A DNA stretch of 64,000 nt from Robertkochia marina (GTDB lineage Bacteria; Bacteroidota; Bacteroidia; Flavobacteriales; Flavobacteriaceae): positions 124,001 through 188,000 of the forward strand of contig NZ_SSMC01000001.1 of NCBI RefSeq assembly GCF_004799345.1, in the 5' to 3' direction. A program made the position numbers and the translations under genes. The stretch's first letter is position 1. Each line of letters starts with the position of its first letter. This document shows, one piece after another, positions 37,116-48,989 of the stretch. Below the pieces are notes generated by a model. The model searched no databases. It was not told the origin of the DNA and saw only the letters and a program-made list of their open reading frames with translations.

Positions 37116-37267
37116 GCTCAATATTTAGCAGGTAATTTTATATTTTTATCAAAAAGAAGGTTGTACCTGTGAAGATACTGCATTATAGCTAATTACTGCA
37201 ATACTATTTCATTATATGGAGATAGTTAATTCGAATATAACCCGCTTCTCAAAGAAAATTGCAAGTT

Positions 37268-38377
37268 ATGAAAGAGATCAAATCTATATTACAACTCTAT
37301 GATTCTTACGGCCAGGGAACAGAAAAGTGTGCCATCGCCCAGGTGGTACGGGTCGAAGAATCTTCCTATCGCCGGGAAGGGGCACGAATGATCGTTTTCG
37401 AGAACGGTACCTTTGAGGGCGGTATCAGCGGAGGCTGCCTGGAAGGCGATGCCCTGCAACGTTCACAGATCGCCATCCTCAAAAAAGAGCCTTCCATCGT
37501 AACCTATGACACCTCAAAAGACGATGAGAATCAGATCGGCGTTGGTTTAGGGTGTAATGGGGTCATCGATGTGCTTATTACCCCGATCACACAGGAAGGT
37601 AACACCCTGAACCTGTTGCAACGCTGTGTAGCATCGCGAAAAGCCCATATCCTGGTAACGGTCACAGCCACCAATACCCCTGATGTGATTGCGCTCGGAC
37701 AAAACTGGTATTACGATACGGCAACACAAACCTTGGAGAACTTTGAACATCAAGCTCTGAAAGCTTCCTTGGAAAAAGATATCCAAACCGTTCTTGATTC
37801 TAAAAGATCAAAGATCTATCATTATAACCTCAACGCCTTGTCTGTAAGTGCCTTCATCGAATTGATACCCCCACAATTTCACTTAGCCATCTATGGGGAT
37901 AATTACGATGTATATCCTATGATCAACCTGGCGGAGGTAATGGATTGGGAGGTGAGCCTGGTAGGGAAGCTACAAAAACTTCGTAAGGATAAACTGGGGG
38001 CTGTAAAAGACCTGTATCAGAAAGATGATACCGAACAGCCTCTTATAGACGACAGAACCGCCGTGGTACTCATGGCACACGACTACAAAACCGACCTGAG
38101 GAATTTAATAAACCTTGTTAATTCGCCAACCCCTTATATCGCCAGCCTGGGCCCAAAGAAACGGTTTAAAAAGATGGTGAATGAACTGGAAGATCGCGGC
38201 ACTCCGCTTACACCCGAACAGCTGGAACGTATCTATGCACCCTGCGGATTAGAGATCGGTGCCAATACTCCCGAAGAGATCGCTGCCAGTATTTTCGCTG
38301 AGATCCTCAGTGTATTCTCCGGAAAAAAAGGCGGGATGCTTCGCGAAAAGCAGGAGCCTATTCATGAGCGGTATTGA
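37268..38377 (+). CDS. XdhC/CoxI-family molybdoenzyme maturation protein
   Basis: Accessory protein that binds and sulfurates molybdenum cofactor for xanthine-dehydrogenase-family enzymes. About 370 residues from ATG 37268. N-terminal XdhC_CoxI domain with AIAQVVRVEESSYRREGARM and GGISGGCLEGDAL; C-terminal Rossmann-like XdhC_C domain with LAIYGDNYDVYPMI and the VVLMAHDYKTDLRNL segment, then APCGLEIGANTPEEIAASI. A second XdhC protein, coxF, ends the cox operon. Divergent from moaA over 150 bp. Confidence 0.9.
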   Translation: MKEIKSILQLYDSYGQGTEKCAIAQVVRVEESSYRREGARMIVFENGTFEGGISGGCLEGDALQRSQIAILKKEPSIVTYDTSKDDENQIGVGLGCNGVIDVLITPITQEGNTLNLLQRCVASRKAHILVTVTATNTPDVIALGQNWYYDTATQTLENFEHQALKASLEKDIQTVLDSKRSKIYHYNLNALSVSAFIELIPPQFHLAIYGDNYDVYPMINLAEVMDWEVSLVGKLQKLRKDKLGAVKDLYQKDDTEQPLIDDRTAVVLMAHDYKTDLRNLINLVNSPTPYIASLGPKKRFKKMVNELEDRGTPLTPEQLERIYAPCGLEIGANTPEEIAASIFAEILSVFSGKKGGMLREKQEPIHERY

Positions 38378-38708: not shown

Positions 38709-39893
38709 TTACCTCTTCCTTCTCTCCCATAGAATATTAGCTTCCCGTTGGGCGGCCACCTCCCGGGAAACAATGGCGATGATCTGTTCCACCTCTTCTT
38801 GTGTAGTATAACGCCCCAGGCTGAAGCGAATGCTTGAAAAGGCGAGCACTTCAGGAATACCCATAGCGGTCAGCACATGAGATGGATTCACATTGGCCGA
38901 GTTACAGGCAGAACCGTTGGACACAGACACCTGCTTGCTCAGGGCGCGCAATAATCCTTCCCCATCCACATACTTAAATGATACATTCAGAGTATTAGGT
39001 AATCTCGAAGCAGCTGCACCATTGACTACGGTTTCTTCTATTGCTGATAAACCTTCCTGGAGTTGATCCCTCAACCCCCTCAACCTTGCAAATTCTACTT
39101 CCAAGTTTTTAACCGATAATTCGACAGCCCTTGCCATACCAACGATTCCGGGGGTATTATAGGTACCTCCGCGAAGCTTCCGTTGCTGTCCGCCCCCATG
39201 CATAAAGGCCTCGAGGAATTTCTCATTACCATCTTTAATATAGGTCAGTCCTACTCCTTTCGGACCGTATACCTTGTGGGAAGAGAAACAGGCAAAATCA
39301 ACATGGTCAAAGAAATCGTCTAATGGGATTTTTCCCAACGCCTGGGTAGCATCAGAAAACAAAAAGCTGCCGTATGTTTTGCAGAGCTCTGAGATCTCCT
39401 GTAAAGGTTGTATCACCCCGGTCTCATTATTGGCAAGCATGATCGCCACCACCAGGGTGGTGTCTGATATATGTTGCTTTAATTGCTGCGTATCCACCAG
39501 GCCATTGGCGGTCACGTCCAGGTAAGTAACCTTAGCTCCTTCAGCCTCCAGCGCCTGGCAGGTATCCAGCACTGCCTTGTGCTCCGCTTTCGAGGTGATA
39601 ATATGGTTTCTTTTGCTTCTTCCTTTCAGATACAATCCTTTGAGAATACTGTTAATACTCTCTGTAGATCCTGAAGTAAATACCAATTCTCCGGGGGATA
39701 CGCCCAGGGCAGTACCAAGAGTTTCTGAAGCGCTATCAATGGCGTCCATGGCCAGCCACCCATGAGCATGATGACTGCTGGATGGGTTTCCGAAATGCAT
39801 GTTGAAATAAGGCATCATGGTATCTACCACCCGCTGATCGCAGGGTGTGGTAGCATTGTAATCTGCATATATCCGGGTGTATTTTGAGGTCAT
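38709..39893 (-). CDS. Cysteine desulfurase (NifS/IscS type)
   Basis: PLP enzyme that takes sulfur from cysteine as a persulfide. 394 residues of the class V aminotransferase fold: YADYNATTPCDQRV at the start, GSTESINS, the PLP-binding lysine in SSHKVYGPKGVG (near residue 205) and the mobile-loop catalytic cysteine in NGSACNSANVNPSHVL (near 330). It lies within the molybdenum/CO island rather than with isc/suf genes. The inferred job is to supply the sulfur for the Mo cofactor of the oxidoreductase; ordinary Fe-S supply is the alternative. Confidence 0.9.
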   Translation of the reverse strand: MTSKYTRIYADYNATTPCDQRVVDTMMPYFNMHFGNPSSSHHAHGWLAMDAIDSASETLGTALGVSPGELVFTSGSTESINSILKGLYLKGRSKRNHIITSKAEHKAVLDTCQALEAEGAKVTYLDVTANGLVDTQQLKQHISDTTLVVAIMLANNETGVIQPLQEISELCKTYGSFLFSDATQALGKIPLDDFFDHVDFACFSSHKVYGPKGVGLTYIKDGNEKFLEAFMHGGGQQRKLRGGTYNTPGIVGMARAVELSVKNLEVEFARLRGLRDQLQEGLSAIEETVVNGAAASRLPNTLNVSFKYVDGEGLLRALSKQVSVSNGSACNSANVNPSHVLTAMGIPEVLAFSSIRFSLGRYTTQEEVEQIIAIVSREVAAQREANILWERRKR

Positions 39894-40019: not shown

Positions 40020-41201
40020 ATGAAGCATCAACAACACAGCAAATTAACAAAACCTTATAAGGGGGTGTACGGACAACATGAGATCAGCATTTTGGGAAGC
40101 AATTGCCACCGGATAGGGAAACTCGCCCGGATGATCGCTGAGGAAATATCAGATCTGTGCGATGCCGCCTATATTGATGCGGACCATAAATCTCCACTAA
40201 ACGAAGAAACCACTCCATCAGTATTTTCCTGGGAGTTTACCAATAAGATCTCCTATCACCGGTTGGATGTTTCTGCCGGGGTATCCGATTTTGAACGTTC
40301 TGCCATGTTCAATGCTTCTCATCTTACAATGGTCAATGGAAATCACGAAAAGGGAATGCATCAGCTTGTGATCATTGATCCTTCAAAAGAAGCAAAGCTG
40401 GAAAAGAGAAAAGAACAGCTGACGCATGTGATCGGTTTAGTGAGTTTGGAGACTACTCCCTCGCCAAAGCTTCGGAGCACGAAGGAGGGTGAGGAAGAGA
40501 AAGGAGAATTACCTGAATATATAAAAGAGTTAATTCCTAATTACAAGGAGTTGCCGGTTGTTACTATCGATGACCGGGCCGGGATGAAGAAACTGGTAGC
40601 GAATTTCCTTATAGATCGGTTACCGAAGATCAAGGGATTGATCCTGGGTGGGGGCAAAAGTACCCGGATGGGAGTCGACAAGGCCTTTTTAGACTATCAC
40701 GGGAAACCTCAACACCTATACCTCAAGGAAGAGCTGGCAGAACTATGTGAGGCCACCTATGTTTCCTGCCGGGAGGAACAGGCTGAACTTTTTCCAACTG
40801 CCTTACCGGATACTTTTTTACACCTGGGGGCCTATGGAGGCATCCTTTCGGCTTTTCAACAAGACCCCAATGCCGCCTGGTTCTCCGTGGCCTGTGATGT
40901 CCCTCTTTTAAATAAGAGCACCCTTGAAAAATTGGTAGCTCAACGTGACCCTTCAAAACTAGCCACCTGCTTCTACAATTCTGAAACCGGCTTCCCGGAA
41001 CCCCTTATTACTATCTGGGAACCCCGGGCCTACCCGGTGCTGCTTCACTATATGTCTATGGGGTATTCCTGTGCCCGTAAAGTATTGATCAATAATGACG
41101 TAAAGGTCGTTAAGCTTGAAAATGAAGAAGTGCTTCTGAATGCCAATACGATGGATGAACGGGAGAAGGCGTTGGGGATGTTACAAAAAAGTCAATTATA
41201 A
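40020..41201 (+). CDS. MobA/MocA-like molybdenum cofactor nucleotidyltransferase with extra N-terminal half
   Basis: 393 residues. The C-terminal half (about 203-390) is a MobA-like nucleotidyltransferase: LILGGGKSTRMGVDKAF near 206, and VACDVPLLNKSTLEKL. CO dehydrogenase uses the cytosine dinucleotide form, so MocA-type CTP activity is inferred; GTP use cannot be excluded. The N-terminal half (1-150) contains ILGSNCHRIGKLARMIAEEI, loosely like a MobB P-loop but without a canonical GxxxxGKS/T, so it is either degenerate or new. A low-complexity linker (about 145-170) joins them. It is the gene before the cox operon. Confidence 0.82.
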   Translation: MKHQQHSKLTKPYKGVYGQHEISILGSNCHRIGKLARMIAEEISDLCDAAYIDADHKSPLNEETTPSVFSWEFTNKISYHRLDVSAGVSDFERSAMFNASHLTMVNGNHEKGMHQLVIIDPSKEAKLEKRKEQLTHVIGLVSLETTPSPKLRSTKEGEEEKGELPEYIKELIPNYKELPVVTIDDRAGMKKLVANFLIDRLPKIKGLILGGGKSTRMGVDKAFLDYHGKPQHLYLKEELAELCEATYVSCREEQAELFPTALPDTFLHLGAYGGILSAFQQDPNAAWFSVACDVPLLNKSTLEKLVAQRDPSKLATCFYNSETGFPEPLITIWEPRAYPVLLHYMSMGYSCARKVLINNDVKVVKLENEEVLLNANTMDEREKALGMLQKSQL

Positions 41202-41574: not shown

Positions 41575-42444
41575 ATGATCCCTGCACCTTTTAATTATCA
41601 CAAGGCATCTACGATAGAGGAAGCTATCGCCTTGTCACAAGAATTGGGCGAAGAAGCTAAATACATGTCGGGCGGACAAAGTCTGCTCCCCATGATGAAG
41701 CTTCGTTTCGCCTCTCCCCAAGACATTATTGATATCAGTAAACTCCAGGGCCTCTCTTACATCAAAGAGGATGGAGATGTTTTAAAGATCGGCGGACTCA
41801 CCACACAAACAGAGTTGGAACACAACGATCTTCTGAAAAGTAAGTATCCGATATTCGGGGATGCAGTATGGTTAACAGCGGATCCTTCAGTGAGAAATTG
41901 CGGAACCATAGGTGGAAACATTGCCCACGGTGATGCTGCCAATGACCAACCGGCCCTGATGCTCGCATTACGGGCCACTTTTATAGCCCATGGTCCGGAT
42001 GGAGAAAAATCTATCCCGGTAGATGAGTTTTTTCACGGTTTTTACATGACGGCTCTTGAACCGGGAGATATACTCACGGAAATCCAGATCCCGAAGGCCA
42101 AACCCAATAGCGGTGGTGCCTATCACAAGGTTGAACGTAAAGTAGGAGATTATGCAACTGCCGGAGTAGCTGTTCATATTGAACTGGATGATAACGGCGT
42201 ATGCACAGAAGTTGGGATAGGTTTAACCAATCTGAGTCCGATGCCGATGCGTCTGGAAAGAGGAGAGGAAGTTTTGCGCGGCAATAAAATCACCGATGAA
42301 CTGATCGAAGAAGTTGGAAAGATCGCCAGTGAAGATTGTGAACCCGATTCAGACCTGAGAGGTTCAGAAGCCTATAAGCGCTCCATAGTAAATACGATCA
42401 CTAAAAGAATGTTGAATAAAGCTCTGGAAAGGGCAAGAAAGTAA
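41575..42444 (+). CDS. coxM: CO dehydrogenase medium (FAD) subunit CoxM
   Basis: FAD subunit that takes electrons from the Fe-S subunit and passes them to the respiratory chain. 289 residues. N-terminal FAD-binding part with [14 protein letters not shown] (residues 32-45), second FAD motif [17 protein letters not shown] (about 110-126); the C-terminal CO dehydrogenase flavoprotein domain has [15 protein letters not shown]. It heads coxM-coxS-coxL, the gene order of form I enzymes. Downstream gap to coxS is 7 nt. Confidence 0.94.
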
Positions 42445-42451
42445 TACGGAA

Positions 42452-42943
42452 ATGGCAAAACACAATATCACCATGACGATCAACGGACAAAGCGTTTCTG
42501 CCGAGGTAGATTCCCGCTTGCTCCTTGTTCACTTTATCAGAGAAAATCTCGACATGACCGGAACCCATATTGGTTGCGACACCTCCAACTGCGGGGCCTG
42601 CACCATTTTACTGGATGGTAAATCCATAAAATCATGTACCTACCTGGCTGTAAGAGCTGACGGCGCCAACATCACCACCATAGAAGGGATTGCAGAAGAC
42701 GGTACCAACCATCCGCTGCAGCAGGCCTTTCACGATCAGCACGGCTTACACTGCGGCTTCTGCACCCCGGGTATGATCATGCGTTCAATTGACCTGTTGA
42801 AGAACAATCCCGACCCGACAGAAGAAGAAATTCGCTGGGGTATTTCAGGGAATCTCTGCAGGTGTACCGGGTACAACAATATCGTTAAGGCTGTACAGCA
42901 GGCTGCCCAGGAAATGAAGAAAGAAAAAGAAACCACTGTTTAA
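42452..42943 (+). CDS. coxS: CO dehydrogenase small (2Fe-2S) subunit CoxS
   Basis: Two [2Fe-2S] clusters linking the molybdenum site to FAD. 163 residues. The plant-ferredoxin-like cluster uses Cys42, Cys47, Cys50 and Cys62 ([18 protein letters not shown]). The second cluster uses Cys101, Cys104, Cys136 and Cys138 (HCGFCTPGM and [10 protein letters not shown]). All eight ligands are present. Middle gene of coxMSL. Confidence 0.95.
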
Positions 42944-42961: not shown

Positions 42962-45328
42962 ATGTTCTCATGTAAAACATCACCGGAGGTTGGCGGAATG
43001 GGCCACTCTATAAAAAGAAAAGAAGATGCCAGGTTTTTACACGGTAAGGGAAATTATGTAGATGATGTAAAATTACCCGGCATGCTGCATATGGTTATGG
43101 TGCGTAGCCCTTACGCCTATGCCAAGATCAAAAGCATTAACAAAGACAAGGCCCTGGCCATTGACGGGGTACTTGCTGTAATTACGGGAGAAGACCTGGC
43201 CCAATACAATCTGCATTGGATGCCTACCCTGCTCTCTGACTCACAAATGGTACTTCCTACCGATACGATCATGCACCAGTCTCAGGAGGTTTGTGCCGTG
43301 ATCGCTACCGATCGCTATATTGCCGTTGATGGTGCCGAAGCGGTGGAAGTAGAGTACGAACCCATGCAAGCTATAGTAGACCCATTTAAGGCATTGGATG
43401 AAGATGCACCTTTGTTGAGACCGGATAAGGAAGGACAGGAAAACAATCATATTTATCACTGGGAACGCGGCGACAAGGCCAAAACAGAAGAGGCCATTGC
43501 CAAGGCCGATGTGGTGGTAAAAGAGCGCATTCATTTACCAAGGATTCACGTAGCTTCTATTGAAACCTGCGGGGTCGTGGCTTCCTATGATAAGGTCACC
43601 GAAAAAATGCTGATCTACCTGACCTCACAGGCACCTCATGCCATTCGCACCATCGTGGCCCTGGTGGCAGGACACGTTGGATTGTCAGAAGAAAAGATCA
43701 GGATCATTGCTCCGGATATCGGAGGAGGATTCGGAGGTAAGGTACCCGTGTATCCCGGTTACGTGATCGCTATTGCCGCAACCTTCCTGATCGGAAAACC
43801 GGTGAAATGGATCGAAGACCGTTCGGAGAACCTGGTTAACGGGTTTGCCCGTGATTATCATATGGACTGCGAGCTTGCCGCCACCAAAGACGGAAAGATC
43901 CAGGCCTTTAAGGTGTCGACCCTGGCTGATCATGGGTATACCGATTCTTCGGCTAACCCGTCAAAGTATCCTACAGGAATGTTCTCCATTTGTACGGGGT
44001 CTTACGATTACGAACACGCTTTTGCAGAACTGGATGCAGTGTATACCAATAAAGCTCCGGGAGGAGTTGCCTATCGCTGTTCCTTCCGTGTAACAGAAGC
44101 GGTGCACGCCATAGAACGTATGGTAGATAAGCTGGCCGCAGAGATCGGCAAAGATCCCGCCCAGTTACGCCTTGAAAATTTTATTAAGAAAGAGCAGTTC
44201 CCTTACTCCTCTCCCCTTGGCTGGAGTTATGACAGTGGCGATTACCACGCTACCCTCAAGAAAGCCATGGACATGCTGGGGTATGACGACTATAAAAAAG
44301 AGCAGGCCGAAAAACGCGCCCAAGGGAAACTCATGGGTATCGGTATCAGCACCTTTACCGAGGTGGTTGGAGCCGGTCCTTCTAAAGACTTCGACATTCT
44401 GGGGATCGCCATGTTCGACAGTGCAGAGATCAGGGTACACCCAACAGGAAAAGCATTGGCCCGTTTCGGTACCAAGTCGCAGGGACAAGGACACGAAACC
44501 ACCTATGCCCAGATCCTGGCAGAAGAGCTGGGTATCCCCTACTCCGATATTGAGATCGAAGAAGGAGACACTGACACGGCACCCTACGGATTAGGAACCT
44601 ACGCCAGTAGAAGTACTCCTACTGCAGGTGCAGCCGCAGCCATCGCTGCCCGTAAGCTTGTTGATAAGGGTAAAAAGATCGCCGCTTACCTTCTTGAGGT
44701 GAGTGAGGAAGATATTGAATGGGAAGTTGGTAAGTATTCCGTAAAGGGTGCTCCTGAAAAGTCGAAGACCATACAGGAAGTGGTATTTGCTTCATACACC
44801 AATATTCCTCCGGGAATGGAACCGGGCTTTGAGGCCACCCATTACTATGACCCACCAAACCTGACCTTCCCGAACGGCGCCTATATCTGTGTGGTAGAGG
44901 TTGATGAGGAAACAGGTGCCATTGATGTGAAACGATTCGTTGCCATTGACGATTGCGGGAATATTATCAACCCCATGATCGTTGAAGGACAGGTACACGG
45001 AGGCTTGACACAGGGAATAGCCCCTGCCATGTATGAGGGCATTCAGTATGATGATGAAGGAAACGTATTGAACGGTACCTTCATGGATTACCTGGTACCA
45101 ACAGCAGTAGAGTCGCCTAAGTGGGAAACCGGGCATACCATTACTCCTTCACCTCACCATCCGCTGGGAGCAAAAGGAGTGGCAGAGTCGCCAACGGTTG
45201 GTGCGCCTCCTGCCATTGCCAATGCGATCATTGATGCCCTCTATCCATTAGGCATTAAACACCTGGATATTCCAATCACCCCATCAAAAGTGTGGGATGC
45301 CATCCAGGAAGCAAAACAAAAGGCGTAA
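42962..45328 (+). CDS. coxL: Form I aerobic CO dehydrogenase large subunit CoxL
   Basis: Catalytic subunit oxidising CO with water to CO2 at a Cu-S-Mo site. 788 residues. The active-site loop reads GGVAYRCSFRVTEA, with Cys373 at the copper ligand position (Cys388 in Oligotropha carboxidovorans). AYxCSFR is the form I signature; form II has AYRGAGR and xanthine dehydrogenases lack it. GGGFGGKVPVYPGYV matches the cofactor loop. Glu742 in GVAESPTVGAPPA is the conserved Mo-site glutamate (Glu763). It has no signal peptide, as expected for a cytoplasmic enzyme attached to the membrane. The gene is full length. Confidence 0.95.
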   Translation: MFSCKTSPEVGGMGHSIKRKEDARFLHGKGNYVDDVKLPGMLHMVMVRSPYAYAKIKSINKDKALAIDGVLAVITGEDLAQYNLHWMPTLLSDSQMVLPTDTIMHQSQEVCAVIATDRYIAVDGAEAVEVEYEPMQAIVDPFKALDEDAPLLRPDKEGQENNHIYHWERGDKAKTEEAIAKADVVVKERIHLPRIHVASIETCGVVASYDKVTEKMLIYLTSQAPHAIRTIVALVAGHVGLSEEKIRIIAPDIGGGFGGKVPVYPGYVIAIAATFLIGKPVKWIEDRSENLVNGFARDYHMDCELAATKDGKIQAFKVSTLADHGYTDSSANPSKYPTGMFSICTGSYDYEHAFAELDAVYTNKAPGGVAYRCSFRVTEAVHAIERMVDKLAAEIGKDPAQLRLENFIKKEQFPYSSPLGWSYDSGDYHATLKKAMDMLGYDDYKKEQAEKRAQGKLMGIGISTFTEVVGAGPSKDFDILGIAMFDSAEIRVHPTGKALARFGTKSQGQGHETTYAQILAEELGIPYSDIEIEEGDTDTAPYGLGTYASRSTPTAGAAAAIAARKLVDKGKKIAAYLLEVSEEDIEWEVGKYSVKGAPEKSKTIQEVVFASYTNIPPGMEPGFEATHYYDPPNLTFPNGAYICVVEVDEETGAIDVKRFVAIDDCGNIINPMIVEGQVHGGLTQGIAPAMYEGIQYDDEGNVLNGTFMDYLVPTAVESPKWETGHTITPSPHHPLGAKGVAESPTVGAPPAIANAIIDALYPLGIKHLDIPITPSKVWDAIQEAKQKA

Positions 45329-45418: not shown

Positions 45419-45889
45419 ATGAAAACACAATTGGAAAAATCTTTTGAAGTCCCCCAGGGTAACGACCTGGTCTGGGAACACCTGATAGACCCTCAAAAAG
45501 TTATGGACTGCGTACCAGGGGTATCAGTTGATGAAAAAGTGGGCGACAACCACTACAAGGGGAAAGTAGGAATGAAGTTCGGCCCGATGGGCGTTCAGTA
45601 CGATGCCGATATCTACTATAAAGAGATCGACAAAGACAACCGTAAGATCATCATTACCGGAGACGGGGTTGACTCTAAAGGAAAAGGAAATGCCGAGATG
45701 ATGATGACCATTAACCTCGCTGATGCAGACGACGGAGGTACAAAACTTGACTCTGTGATGGATGTGACCATCAACGGAAAAATAGCCCAGTTCGGATCCC
45801 GTCTTATTACCACGGTATCCAACCAGCTTTTTAAGCAGTTTGCATCTAATTTCACCAAGAAGTTAGCAGAGGCCGAGGCTACAGCATAA
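45419..45889 (+). CDS. coxG: CoxG, SRPBCC-fold CO dehydrogenase accessory protein
   Basis: CoxG recruits the enzyme to the membrane in the known system. 156 residues of SRPBCC fold: FEVPQGNDLVWEHLIDPQKVMDCVPGV, YKGKVGMKFGPMGVQYD, and the C-terminal helix ITTVSNQLFKQFASNFTKKL. It stops right after this domain (EAEATA), so the long C-terminal membrane-binding extension of some homologues is absent. Follows coxL by 90 nt. Confidence 0.88.
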   Translation: MKTQLEKSFEVPQGNDLVWEHLIDPQKVMDCVPGVSVDEKVGDNHYKGKVGMKFGPMGVQYDADIYYKEIDKDNRKIIITGDGVDSKGKGNAEMMMTINLADADDGGTKLDSVMDVTINGKIAQFGSRLITTVSNQLFKQFASNFTKKLAEAEATA

Positions 45890-45956: not shown

Positions 45957-46829
45957 TTGAATAAAGAAATTGACGATCTGATAAAGGACTTCTATAAGCA
46001 TGACTACATCCTGAATGAAGCGCTTGCCACCTCTGTTTTTCTGTTAAAGAACCTGGGGAAGCCTTTATTGCTGGAAGGAAGCCCGGGAGTAGGTAAAACC
46101 GTTCTGGCCAAAACCCTGGCACAACACCTCGGTACCGACCTGATACGCTTGCAGTGTTATGAAGGGTTGGATGTGAGTACCTCCATCTATGAGTGGAACT
46201 ACCAAAAACAATTGCTTCACATAAAATTGTTTGAACAGGAAACCGATAAAAAGACCCTGGGAAAGGAGATCTTCGGAATGGATTATGTCTTGAAACGCCC
46301 CCTATTACAATCTATCAGTGCTGACAAACCTGTGGTGTTGCTGATCGATGAGATCGACAGGGCTGATGAGGAATTTGAGGCATATCTGCTGGAGCTGCTC
46401 TCCGATTTTCAGATCAGTATTCCCGAGCTTGGCACCATCACCGCCAGAACAAAACCCCTGGTTATCTTGACCTCCAACAGAACCCGGGAACTCAGCGATG
46501 CACTCAGGAGAAGGTGCTTATACCATTGGGTAGATTTCCCCACCAAGATCGGAGAGATCCGGATCATCAGTAAAAAACTCCCTGATATTGACGAGCAACT
46601 GGCCACCCAGGTGGTTACCTTTATCCATAATCTGCGTAAAGCCAGCCTTCACAAACCCCCGGGCATAGCAGAATCACTGGATTGGGCCAAGACCCTATTG
46701 CTGATGAATCAGAAAAATATCACCGACGAGATCGTCAAGACCACCATTGGAAGCGTACTCAAGCACAAAGATGATGTTGAATTCGTAACCAACCGATCGG
46801 TGCAGGAATTCCTTGTACCAATAGACTGA
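45957..46829 (+). CDS. coxD: CoxD, MoxR-type AAA+ ATPase for CO dehydrogenase maturation
   Basis: 290 residues. Walker A GSPGVGKT (about 40-47), Walker B VVLLIDEIDRADEEFEA (about 125), sensor TSNRTRELSDALRRRC with arginine finger. In the Oligotropha system CoxD is needed for sulfuration of the active site. The start is TTG 45957; the only nearby ATG, at 45927, is immediately followed by a stop in frame. Followed by the VWA protein CoxE, its usual partner. Confidence 0.92.
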   Translation: MNKEIDDLIKDFYKHDYILNEALATSVFLLKNLGKPLLLEGSPGVGKTVLAKTLAQHLGTDLIRLQCYEGLDVSTSIYEWNYQKQLLHIKLFEQETDKKTLGKEIFGMDYVLKRPLLQSISADKPVVLLIDEIDRADEEFEAYLLELLSDFQISIPELGTITARTKPLVILTSNRTRELSDALRRRCLYHWVDFPTKIGEIRIISKKLPDIDEQLATQVVTFIHNLRKASLHKPPGIAESLDWAKTLLLMNQKNITDEIVKTTIGSVLKHKDDVEFVTNRSVQEFLVPID

Positions 46830-46858: not shown

Positions 46859-47995
46859 TTGCAGGCTGTAAATAAAACATTCAAAGAACGTATTATCGAC
46901 TTTACCCTGTATTGTCGAGAAAGACAGTTCATGCTCGGTCCGCAGGAAACAAGAGATGCTTTTGAGATCGCTTCAAGAGGATATGCGCTTGACCGAAAGC
47001 TCTTTCAGTACAGCCTGAAGGCCATATTCTGCAAGCGTAAAGAACACTACGACCGCTTTGATGAGATGTTTGATCGCTTCTGGAGCCGGTATTACGAAGA
47101 AAAACTGGAACAACGCAAAAAGCAGGTCAAGCAGCTTAAAAAAGAAAAGGATGTTGATACGGTTATCTTCCTGGGAACGGAGTTCAAGATCCCGAAAAAA
47201 AAGGTGGAGCAGGAAGAAGCCAAGCAGACCGTTGGAGCCAATGAATCGCTGAGGCTAAGAATGACCGATTTTTCAAAAGTAGATGTTGGCGACAAAGAGA
47301 AGTTCGAAGAACTGGCCGAAGAACTCTTTCACCAAATGAGCATGCGCTTTAAGCGCAGGCTGGAAAGTGCCAACAGCGGACAGATCGATATCCGAAATAC
47401 TATCAGGCACGGTATTTCTAAAGGGGGACTTCTACTGGAATTATCCCGTAAGAGAAAACGGAAAGAGAAACGGAAGGTCGTTTTTATACTGGATGTAAGC
47501 GGATCTATGGACACCTACAGTTATTACCTGCTGCGCTATATTTTGGTCTTAAAAAAATACTTTAAGACCCTGGAGTTCTTTACCTTTAGTACAGAGCTCA
47601 CCCACGTAACCCCCATGTTGCGGCAAAATAACGAGCTGGAGATCTTAAAAGAGATCGGGAAAAATGTACAATCCTGGTCGAGCGGCACAAAGATAGGCGC
47701 CTCGCTTACCGAATTTCTTTCGGTATACGGCAGCAAGTTTTTGAGCCAAAAACATGTGGTGGTCATTTTAAGCGATGGCCTGGAAACCGGAAATGTAGCC
47801 GAACTTAAAGAAGCAGTACGAACCATCAAGAGAAAGTGTAAGACCCTGGTATGGCTTAATCCCTTAAAGGGAACGCAGGGATACCAACCCATTCAAACGG
47901 GTATCGTGAACGTAATGCCGCATCTCGATGCTTTCGAATCGGCACATAACCTGGACAGCTTATTAAAACTTGAAAAAATACTAATGGATGTTTAA
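46859..47995 (+). CDS. coxE: CoxE, VWA-domain protein for CO dehydrogenase maturation
   Basis: 378 residues. N-terminal basic helical part, then a von Willebrand A domain with the MIDAS motif in VFILDVSGSMD (about residues 208-218) and ILSDGLETG. In the known system CoxE works with CoxD and CoxF in active-site maturation. The start appears to be TTG 46859, as the next Met is at residue 24 or later. Its last 8 nt overlap the start of coxF. Confidence 0.9.
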   Translation: MQAVNKTFKERIIDFTLYCRERQFMLGPQETRDAFEIASRGYALDRKLFQYSLKAIFCKRKEHYDRFDEMFDRFWSRYYEEKLEQRKKQVKQLKKEKDVDTVIFLGTEFKIPKKKVEQEEAKQTVGANESLRLRMTDFSKVDVGDKEKFEELAEELFHQMSMRFKRRLESANSGQIDIRNTIRHGISKGGLLLELSRKRKRKEKRKVVFILDVSGSMDTYSYYLLRYILVLKKYFKTLEFFTFSTELTHVTPMLRQNNELEILKEIGKNVQSWSSGTKIGASLTEFLSVYGSKFLSQKHVVVILSDGLETGNVAELKEAVRTIKRKCKTLVWLNPLKGTQGYQPIQTGIVNVMPHLDAFESAHNLDSLLKLEKILMDV

Positions 47996-48989
47996 CGAAC
48001 TTGCTTTACAGATAGAAAAACACCTGGCTGAAGGCGATGATTTTGCCATTGCCCAGGTAGTAGATCGCATTGCTCCAAGCTCCGGGAAGGTGGGCGACAA
48101 GGCTATTATTCTGGAAACCGGCGAACTCATCGGATGGATCGGCGGCGGTTGTGTGCGGGGTATCGTGATCAAAGAAGCCCTGGAAGTGATAAAGACCAAA
48201 CGCTACCGAAGAGTTCGCATATCACCTGAAGGCGGGTCTAAAGAAACGCCTACCTACAAAGAATATGTTATGTCTTGCCAAAGTAAAGGAACCGTAGAAA
48301 TTATGATAGAACCCGTAATACCCCAACCTGAACTCATAGTAGTCGGTAAAAGCAATATAGCCCGTAAACTGGTGCAATTGGCCTCAGCTGCCGATTTCAG
48401 GGTAACCGTCATGGCCTCCGATGCCGATGTGCAAATGTTTCCTTCTGCCCAGCGCCTGGAAGATCATGTTGACTTTAGTACGATCAAGAAATTCACCAAC
48501 ACCTATATCATCGTCACCACCCAGGGAGAAGACGATGAGCTTTCGGTGAAAAAGGCACTGGAAACCAATGCGAAGTATGTAGGCTTTGTAGCCAGCGCTA
48601 AAAAGTCGGATGACATAAAGACCTACCTTACCAGCGCAGGGATTCCGGAAGAACGGATCAACCAGTTGCGAAGCCCTGTTGGTATAGACATCAATGCCAA
48701 ACTGGCAAGTGAAGTAGCTATCAGCATCCTGGCCGATGTGATCGCTGATTTCCGAAAGGCAAATACAGGCTATGGCTCTCGCTGCGAAAGCGAAGAGATG
48801 GAAACAGCTCAAGAGCCTGTGAATGAACAATTCGCAGAAGACTATTATATCAATCCCGTTTGCGGGGTACCTGTATCCAAAAAGAACCCCAAACACGTGA
48901 TCGAATACAAGGATGAGAAGGTGTATTTCTGTTGTGATGGGTGTAAGGTGAGTTTTGAGAAGAACCCGGAGCAGTATATGAATCGTTAG
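47988..48989 (+). CDS. coxF: CoxF, XdhC-family protein with C-terminal YHS-like metal module
   Basis: 333 residues. N-terminal XdhC_CoxI domain (AIAQVVDRIAPSSGKVGDKA, GWIGGGCVRG), a Rossmann-type XdhC_C domain (ELIVVGKSNIARKLVQLA near 110-130; LRSPVGIDINAKLASEVAISI). An extra segment (about 285-333) reads INPVCGVPVSKKNPKHVIEY then VYFCCDGCKVSFEKNPEQY, a YHS-type metal-binding module with four cysteines. Last gene of the operon. The known role is active-site maturation; the YHS part suggests copper handling (inference). Confidence 0.88.
   Translation: MFNELALQIEKHLAEGDDFAIAQVVDRIAPSSGKVGDKAIILETGELIGWIGGGCVRGIVIKEALEVIKTKRYRRVRISPEGGSKETPTYKEYVMSCQSKGTVEIMIEPVIPQPELIVVGKSNIARKLVQLASAADFRVTVMASDADVQMFPSAQRLEDHVDFSTIKKFTNTYIIVTTQGEDDELSVKKALETNAKYVGFVASAKKSDDIKTYLTSAGIPEERINQLRSPVGIDINAKLASEVAISILADVIADFRKANTGYGSRCESEEMETAQEPVNEQFAEDYYINPVCGVPVSKKNPKHVIEYKDEKVYFCCDGCKVSFEKNPEQYMNR

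Follow-up and report, generated by a model that had tools for sequence, protein, structure and literature searches.

Bacteria oxidise carbon monoxide with CO dehydrogenase (CODH), an enzyme that contains molybdenum and copper. CoxF, encoded in the clusters for form I CODH, is quite probably an XdhC-type maturation protein that bears a copper-carrying arm on a flexible linker. In the window (the whole stretch of 64,000 nt from Robertkochia marina that was analysed) the arm is a YHS domain, and in one lineage of Bacteroidota an unrelated domain of the copper-chaperone type occupies the same position. The preliminary description of this DNA had proposed the CoxF arm as a route for copper into CODH, a reading that comparison of sequences across many phyla supports. 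No description of a fusion of XdhC or CoxF with YHS or HMA was found in the open-licence papers searched.

Published work on copper insertion

In Oligotropha (Afipia) carboxidovorans, the one organism in which the requirement of CODH copper for CoxF has been shown, coxE and coxF mutants make a CODH that has its full complement of Mo and sulfane sulfur but is devoid of copper (PMC4240915). Disrupting coxE gives the same result as disrupting coxF and also causes loss of the CoxF protein, so that the effect of losing CoxF alone is not separated out by the published genetics. The motif M107CPSHGTM has been proposed as the copper site of Oligotropha CoxF (PMC4240915), and for XdhC proteins a part in helping or protecting the sulfuration of Mo has been suggested (PMC4240915, PMC2997495). 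In a different setting, a YHS domain gives a mycobacterial adenylyl cyclase Cu2+-specific activation, with an inferred D, C, C, C ligand set of the same spacing as in CoxF; such a domain may also be unoccupied, as in toluene 4-hydroxylase (PMC4626032).

CoxF and the cox cluster of the window

The cox genes of the window lie in the order coxM-S-L-G-D-E-F (Table 1), the coxF ATG overlapping the coxE stop by 8 nt. CoxL is of form I, matching TIGR02416 with 1211 bits against a cut-off of 991 and carrying the motif AYRCSFR, the cysteine of which ligates copper in the Oligotropha enzyme (PMC4240915). CoxF, of 333 aa, is encoded inside this form I cluster, groups with other CoxFs and not with CoxI in the tree, and has both XdhC-family domains, XdhC_CoxI and XdhC_C, in a Pfam scan. 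An HMA domain with MxCxxC is absent from it in the same scan, and its likeness to Atx1/CopZ is one of proposed function only. The second XdhC protein was said in the preliminary description to lack the C-terminal module, and does: it has two XdhC domains and no YHS. Between coxI and coxM lie a class-V aminotransferase, possibly a cysteine desulfurase (38709-39893), and a MobA-like NTP transferase (40020-41201), which are plausible suppliers of sulfur and Moco for CODH. Relatives of the window CoxE were searched for in viral contigs and none were found.

Table 1. Features of the window and of comparison loci
Feature	Position	Strand	Remarks
Second XdhC protein, CoxI-type	37259..38377	+	without YHS; internal contrast
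coxM (FAD subunit)	41575..42444	+	named from order and resemblance to annotated clusters
coxS (2Fe-2S subunit)	42452..42943	+	named from order and resemblance to annotated clusters
coxL, form I CODH large subunit	42962..45328	+	TIGR02416, AYRCSFR
coxG	45419..45889	+	PF06240
coxD, MoxR-type AAA+ ATPase	45957..46829	+	
coxE, VWA_CoxE protein	46859..47995	+	
coxF	47988..48989	+	XdhC_CoxI residues 13-78, XdhC_C Rossmann 116-251, linker, YHS 288-332
Codon of C97, invariant XdhC-core cysteine	48276..48278	+	aligned with Oligotropha M107CPSHGTM
Flexible linker between Rossmann domain and YHS arm	48774..48818	+	residues 263-277, pLDDT under 50
YHS arm of CoxF	48849..48983	+	Pfam PF04945, residues 288-332
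Presumed metal ligands	N289 48852-48854; C292 48861-48863; C315 48930-48932; C319 48942-48944	+	
HMA-armed CoxF loci	L224-L228, L229:9786-10844, L230:8865-10115, L231:2786-3913		
CoxL motif-variant loci	L174:4062-6902, L216:4880-7810, L217:7268-10147; L169, L170, L173		

Nucleotides 48840-48989, which encode CoxF residues 285-333 with the stop, had been read as a YHS-like, Cys-rich module; the motifs quoted for it are exact, and the YHS domain scores 43.1 bits against a curated cut-off of 30.3 (E 4.1e-11). A whole-genome search found no second YHS domain. The (D/N)PxC ... FCxxxC metal-ligand pattern of the family is present, and the four presumed ligands were placed by analogy with D178, C181, C204 and C208 of the Mycobacterium phlei cyclase (PMC4626032); C316 is an additional cysteine of the arm. 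Across 55 aligned CoxFs, selected for having YHS, C292, C315 and C319 never vary, and neither do C55 and C97 in the XdhC body. Few residues of the arm are as well conserved as the metal-site cysteines, which hardly vary over about 15 phyla. In 97 copies of YHS the first ligand position holds D 65 times and N 30 times, and C316 is often replaced by S, A, G or N; FCC, with its two adjacent thiols and a third, was dropped as a constant of YHS-bearing CoxF on account of this variation.

Structure prediction, suggested at the outset as a check on the module, gave a CoxF model in which the XdhC body and the arm fold with high confidence and the linker is disordered; modelled alone, the arm reaches a pLDDT of 94. 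The nearest solved folds of CoxF are the XdhC-type proteins 2WE7, 2WE8 and 3ON5. For the arm, the best Foldseek matches are the YHS segments of toluene/methane monooxygenase hydroxylases (probability 0.99-1.0, E only about 0.03), with ribosomal L24e also among the closest folds, and at the level of sequence the arm matches phenol hydroxylase with an E of 1e-8.

Distribution of the fusion

The first relatives came from plasmid records, through which Pseudomonadota and Actinomycetota were almost exclusively sampled, and place an XdhC-YHS protein inside the form I cox cluster of Paraburkholderia, Thermomicrobium roseum and Natronorubrum; two Caballeronia records have one with coxL a few kb off. 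When a form I CoxL alignment was scanned against genome contigs, 80 loci from about 15 phyla were obtained, 61 of which contain XdhC-YHS. The remainder comprise 14 loci without CoxF in the stretch, three cut by a contig edge and two with a CoxF-like protein lacking YHS; for eight of the 14, most of whose genomes were searched, the fusion lies elsewhere in the genome. XdhC-YHS is the usual architecture of CoxF outside Alphaproteobacteria, and no oddity of the window. The earlier statement that XdhC proteins normally end before such a module holds for XdhC generally and fails for form I CoxF outside Alphaproteobacteria, which is usually armed.

Among 261 genomes of Chloroflexota, which like those of the other phyla sampled share ancestry and are not independent, the fusion occurs in 54, form I coxL above the curated cut-off in 56, and both in 53 (Fisher p about 1e-50, a statistic that ignores shared ancestry). 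Where the two share a contig they are 27-750 nt apart, with one case at 2.6 kb. Three form I genomes have no full-length match to the fusion: one is cut by a contig end, and the other two, at first taken for form I genomes without the fusion, were rejected as such when diverged fusions were found in them, accompanying a CoxL with the motif AYACSFR. The single fusion genome lacking coxL has its fusion at the edge of a contig. None of the YHS-less XdhC paralogues, drawn from 21 of these Chloroflexota genomes and hit by the same profile as the fusions, lies near form I coxL; within genomes, the arm accompanies the copper enzyme and not XdhC proteins generally.

The 395 non-independent genomes of Gemmatimonadota divide into 37 with both genes, 15 with the fusion only, five with form I coxL only and 338 with neither. 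Form I-like fragments of coxL turned up in several of the 15, on contig ends or in another part of the genome, and in nearly all the others coxD adjoins the fusion; having been considered as counter-examples, they were read as consistent with assembly gaps, given these neighbours and fragments. Of the five genomes with form I only, three are without CoxF in the available sequence; in a fourth the CoxF frame stops where YHS begins, and the fifth is cut off by the contig end. The preliminary description had asked whether the fusion tracks form I coxL or occurs mainly with copper-free enzymes. In the phylum samples and many further loci this tracking is close, and neither there nor in the other loci was a fusion found paired with another molybdenum hydroxylase.

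Several loci deserve separate mention. A CoxF-like protein of Gemmatimonadota beside coxD and coxE (L165:9493-10335) is without YHS and has an altered C97 region, in a genome that has no form I coxL match above the cut-off, and it may serve as a natural negative control. A CoxF from a genome labelled Gammaproteobacteria (L073), which shares its phylum sample with a Gemmatimonadota genome (that of L110), groups with Gemmatimonadota, the label probably being a misassignment. Form I CoxL itself varies in its motif, which reads AYACSFR in Nonomuraea and two Chloroflexota and SYRCSFR in Rhodobacterales.

Probable replacement of YHS by an HMA domain

Among 259 genomes of Bacteroidota, six have CoxF, and these six are also the ones with form I coxL. 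In five of these, belonging to two families other than that of the window, CoxF is without YHS and has at the YHS position a CopZ/Atx1-like HMA domain with a CxxC site, the motif being GMSCAHC in four and AMSCAHC in one. Both of the CoxFs that were scanned match HMA PF00403 above its cut-off (E 3e-10), and the closest solved sequences to this arm are the copper proteins ATP7B, CopA and CopZ. In the three of these clusters that were read from end to end, form I coxL (AYRCSFR), coxD and coxE lie alongside.

When the tree is built from the XdhC part only, the HMA-bearing proteins fall within the YHS-bearing CoxFs, nearest to a YHS protein of Calditrichota (support 86). Since they are nested among YHS proteins, the simplest reading is that HMA took the place of YHS, in what would be an independent change to a classic module of the copper-chaperone type. 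The swap supports a copper role independently: YHS and HMA are unrelated folds that stand at the same position of CoxF, beside the same enzyme, and have in common only a thiolate metal site. This is the strongest evidence assembled here for a copper function.

Armless CoxFs

The alphaproteobacterial CoxFs, that of Oligotropha included, form one armless clade, sister to the YHS proteins of Burkholderiales with moderate support (80-86) and lying inside the armed CoxFs when rooted on CoxI; these, as for the other CoxF/XdhC trees, are quick trees with SH-aLRT support only. Provisionally, and on the simplest reading, the arm would have been gained once near the root of CoxF, exchanged once, and lost separately in Alphaproteobacteria, in the actinobacterium Nonomuraea and in a few others. 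The CoxF of Deinococcus, in a form I cox cluster (L004:8956-10017), has a YHS-like tail with PVDG and FTCANC, in which the equivalents of C292 and C315, two of the three metal cysteines, are replaced. Since Alphaproteobacteria are without the arm, copper insertion is not strictly dependent on it.

The only CoxF studied genetically is thus an armless one, which suggests that the organism in which CoxF is best known is atypical. A conserved C-H-M site (MCPSHGTM) was considered as compensation in armless CoxFs and rejected, the histidine and both methionines not being kept among Alphaproteobacteria: setting aside a nearly identical protein of Bradyrhizobium, the residues shared by all the others that were read are just the C, P, S and G of a CPSxG core. 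As M107CPSHGTM aligns with the generic C97 of XdhC and its H and Ms are not kept, it is a weak candidate for a copper site, and the published proposal for the copper route rests on what is a generic XdhC cysteine.

Proposed mechanism and its alternatives

Taken together, the copper-free CODH of coxF mutants and the armed architecture make a tethered copper-delivery arm the best reading. The YHS arm would take up copper, probably Cu(I), by means of C292, C315 and C319 and possibly of a fourth ligand, N289, where many relatives have D; CoxD would sulfurate the Mo site of the apo-enzyme before CoxF acts; the XdhC body would then dock on the sulfurated apo-enzyme, and the tethered arm would pass the metal on to form Mo-S-Cu-S-Cys. 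In one lineage of Bacteroidota the CopZ-like HMA domain would do the same job. Copper binding by a YHS arm is suggested by analogy with the mycobacterial cyclase (PMC4626032); that it takes place in vivo, that transfer is direct and that the steps follow this order we infer. An arm that carries Cu(I), and an XdhC body that places it on sulfurated apo-CODH, is the most likely mechanism. The fuller proposition, that CoxF is a dedicated fused copper chaperone whose exchangeable arm (YHS, tandem YHS or HMA) inserts Cu in the sulfurated Mo centre, and that the Oligotropha clade lost this arm, is held with slightly less assurance, yet still leans towards the probable.

Next in order comes the idea that the arm is a copper sensor that turns CoxF on, letting maturation proceed only while copper is available, the metal reaching the active site by other means. 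It is unlikely, although the one YHS fusion studied by biochemistry, an adenylyl cyclase, is activated by copper (PMC4626032) and Alphaproteobacteria insert copper without an arm; the exchange for a CopZ/Atx1-like HMA domain fits carrying at least equally, the stand-alone HMA relatives being carriers, and the enzyme of coxF mutants is wholly copper-free (PMC4240915). Slightly less credible is a structural or docking function, in which YHS would bind Zn or nothing and either hold two CoxFs together or attach CoxF to CODH, CoxE or CoxD, the link with form I then reflecting partner recognition rather than copper. YHS/TRASH folds can indeed be structural, the closest folds to the arm are a monooxygenase YHS segment and ribosomal L24e, and CODH function is intact in the armless Alphaproteobacteria; however, substitution by an unrelated fold that keeps only a CxxC metal site is hard to explain in this way, and conservation in the arm is highest, or nearly so, at the metal-site cysteines.

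A relay of sulfur, with the arm cysteines carrying persulfide for Mo sulfuration in place of copper, is very improbable. The proposed part of XdhC in assisting or protecting sulfuration (PMC4240915, PMC2997495), the possible cysteine desulfurase at 38709-39893 and the extra C316 would all suit it, but XdhC paralogues serving other Mo enzymes have no arm, the CODH of coxF mutants has stoichiometric sulfane sulfur and lacks copper (PMC4240915), and C316 is not conserved. Just as improbable is an old neutral fusion kept by descent, the link with form I being one functionless event. A single gain, after which the fusion was inherited and travelled with the cox operon, could account for most of the distribution; against this, the metal-site cysteines have stayed nearly invariant over about 15 phyla, YHS has been replaced by HMA, and in some Chloroflexota the arm has been duplicated in tandem.

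Relation to known systems and significance

The CoxF of O. carboxidovorans is likewise an XdhC homologue encoded beside coxD, coxE and form I coxMSL, and is needed for CODH copper (PMC4240915), but at 280 aa it stops after the XdhC Rossmann domain, with neither YHS nor HMA. The XdhC of xanthine dehydrogenase and CoxI share the two-domain XdhC body and differ in having no C-terminal metal arm; the clients of XdhC, unlike that of CoxF, are copper-free molybdenum hydroxylases. The YHS domain of the M. phlei class IIIc adenylyl cyclase is also C-terminal, on a short linker, and has the same C..CxxxC spacing (PMC4626032); in contrast to the arm of the window it regulates a cyclase, has D rather than N as first ligand, and has no role in cofactor maturation. 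With the HMA chaperones CopZ and Atx1 the arm shares a proposed task, the carrying of cytosolic copper, and HMA is itself the arm of CoxF in five of the form I genomes of Bacteroidota. The arm of the window is a YHS domain of unrelated fold fused to a molybdoenzyme maturase, whereas the HMA domains of CopZ/Atx1 stand free or on a P-type ATPase.

The arm offers a physical candidate for the copper route to the Mo-S-Cu site, and names three cysteines. The natural change from YHS to a CopZ-like domain predicts the outcome of a domain exchange, and an XdhC-YHS/HMA fusion beside coxL would be a genome marker of a genuine copper-containing CODH. If the proposal is true, Moco maturation and copper delivery are united in one protein.

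Further variants of the arm

Tandem double YHS arms are present on CoxF of some Chloroflexota (L102:12374-13591, L108:12359-13591 and L117:18791-19954), and the linkers of some armed CoxFs (L003, L098, L110) contain CCGG-type motifs. A YHS-less CoxF beside form I coxL (L106:8281-9216) ends in ...GKGHCCHD, possibly a minimal metal-binding tail. In a Thermoplasmata archaeon, an open frame of 920 aa (L116:9983-12742, minus strand; start codon provisional) joins a MobA-like nucleotidyltransferase to XdhC and YHS.
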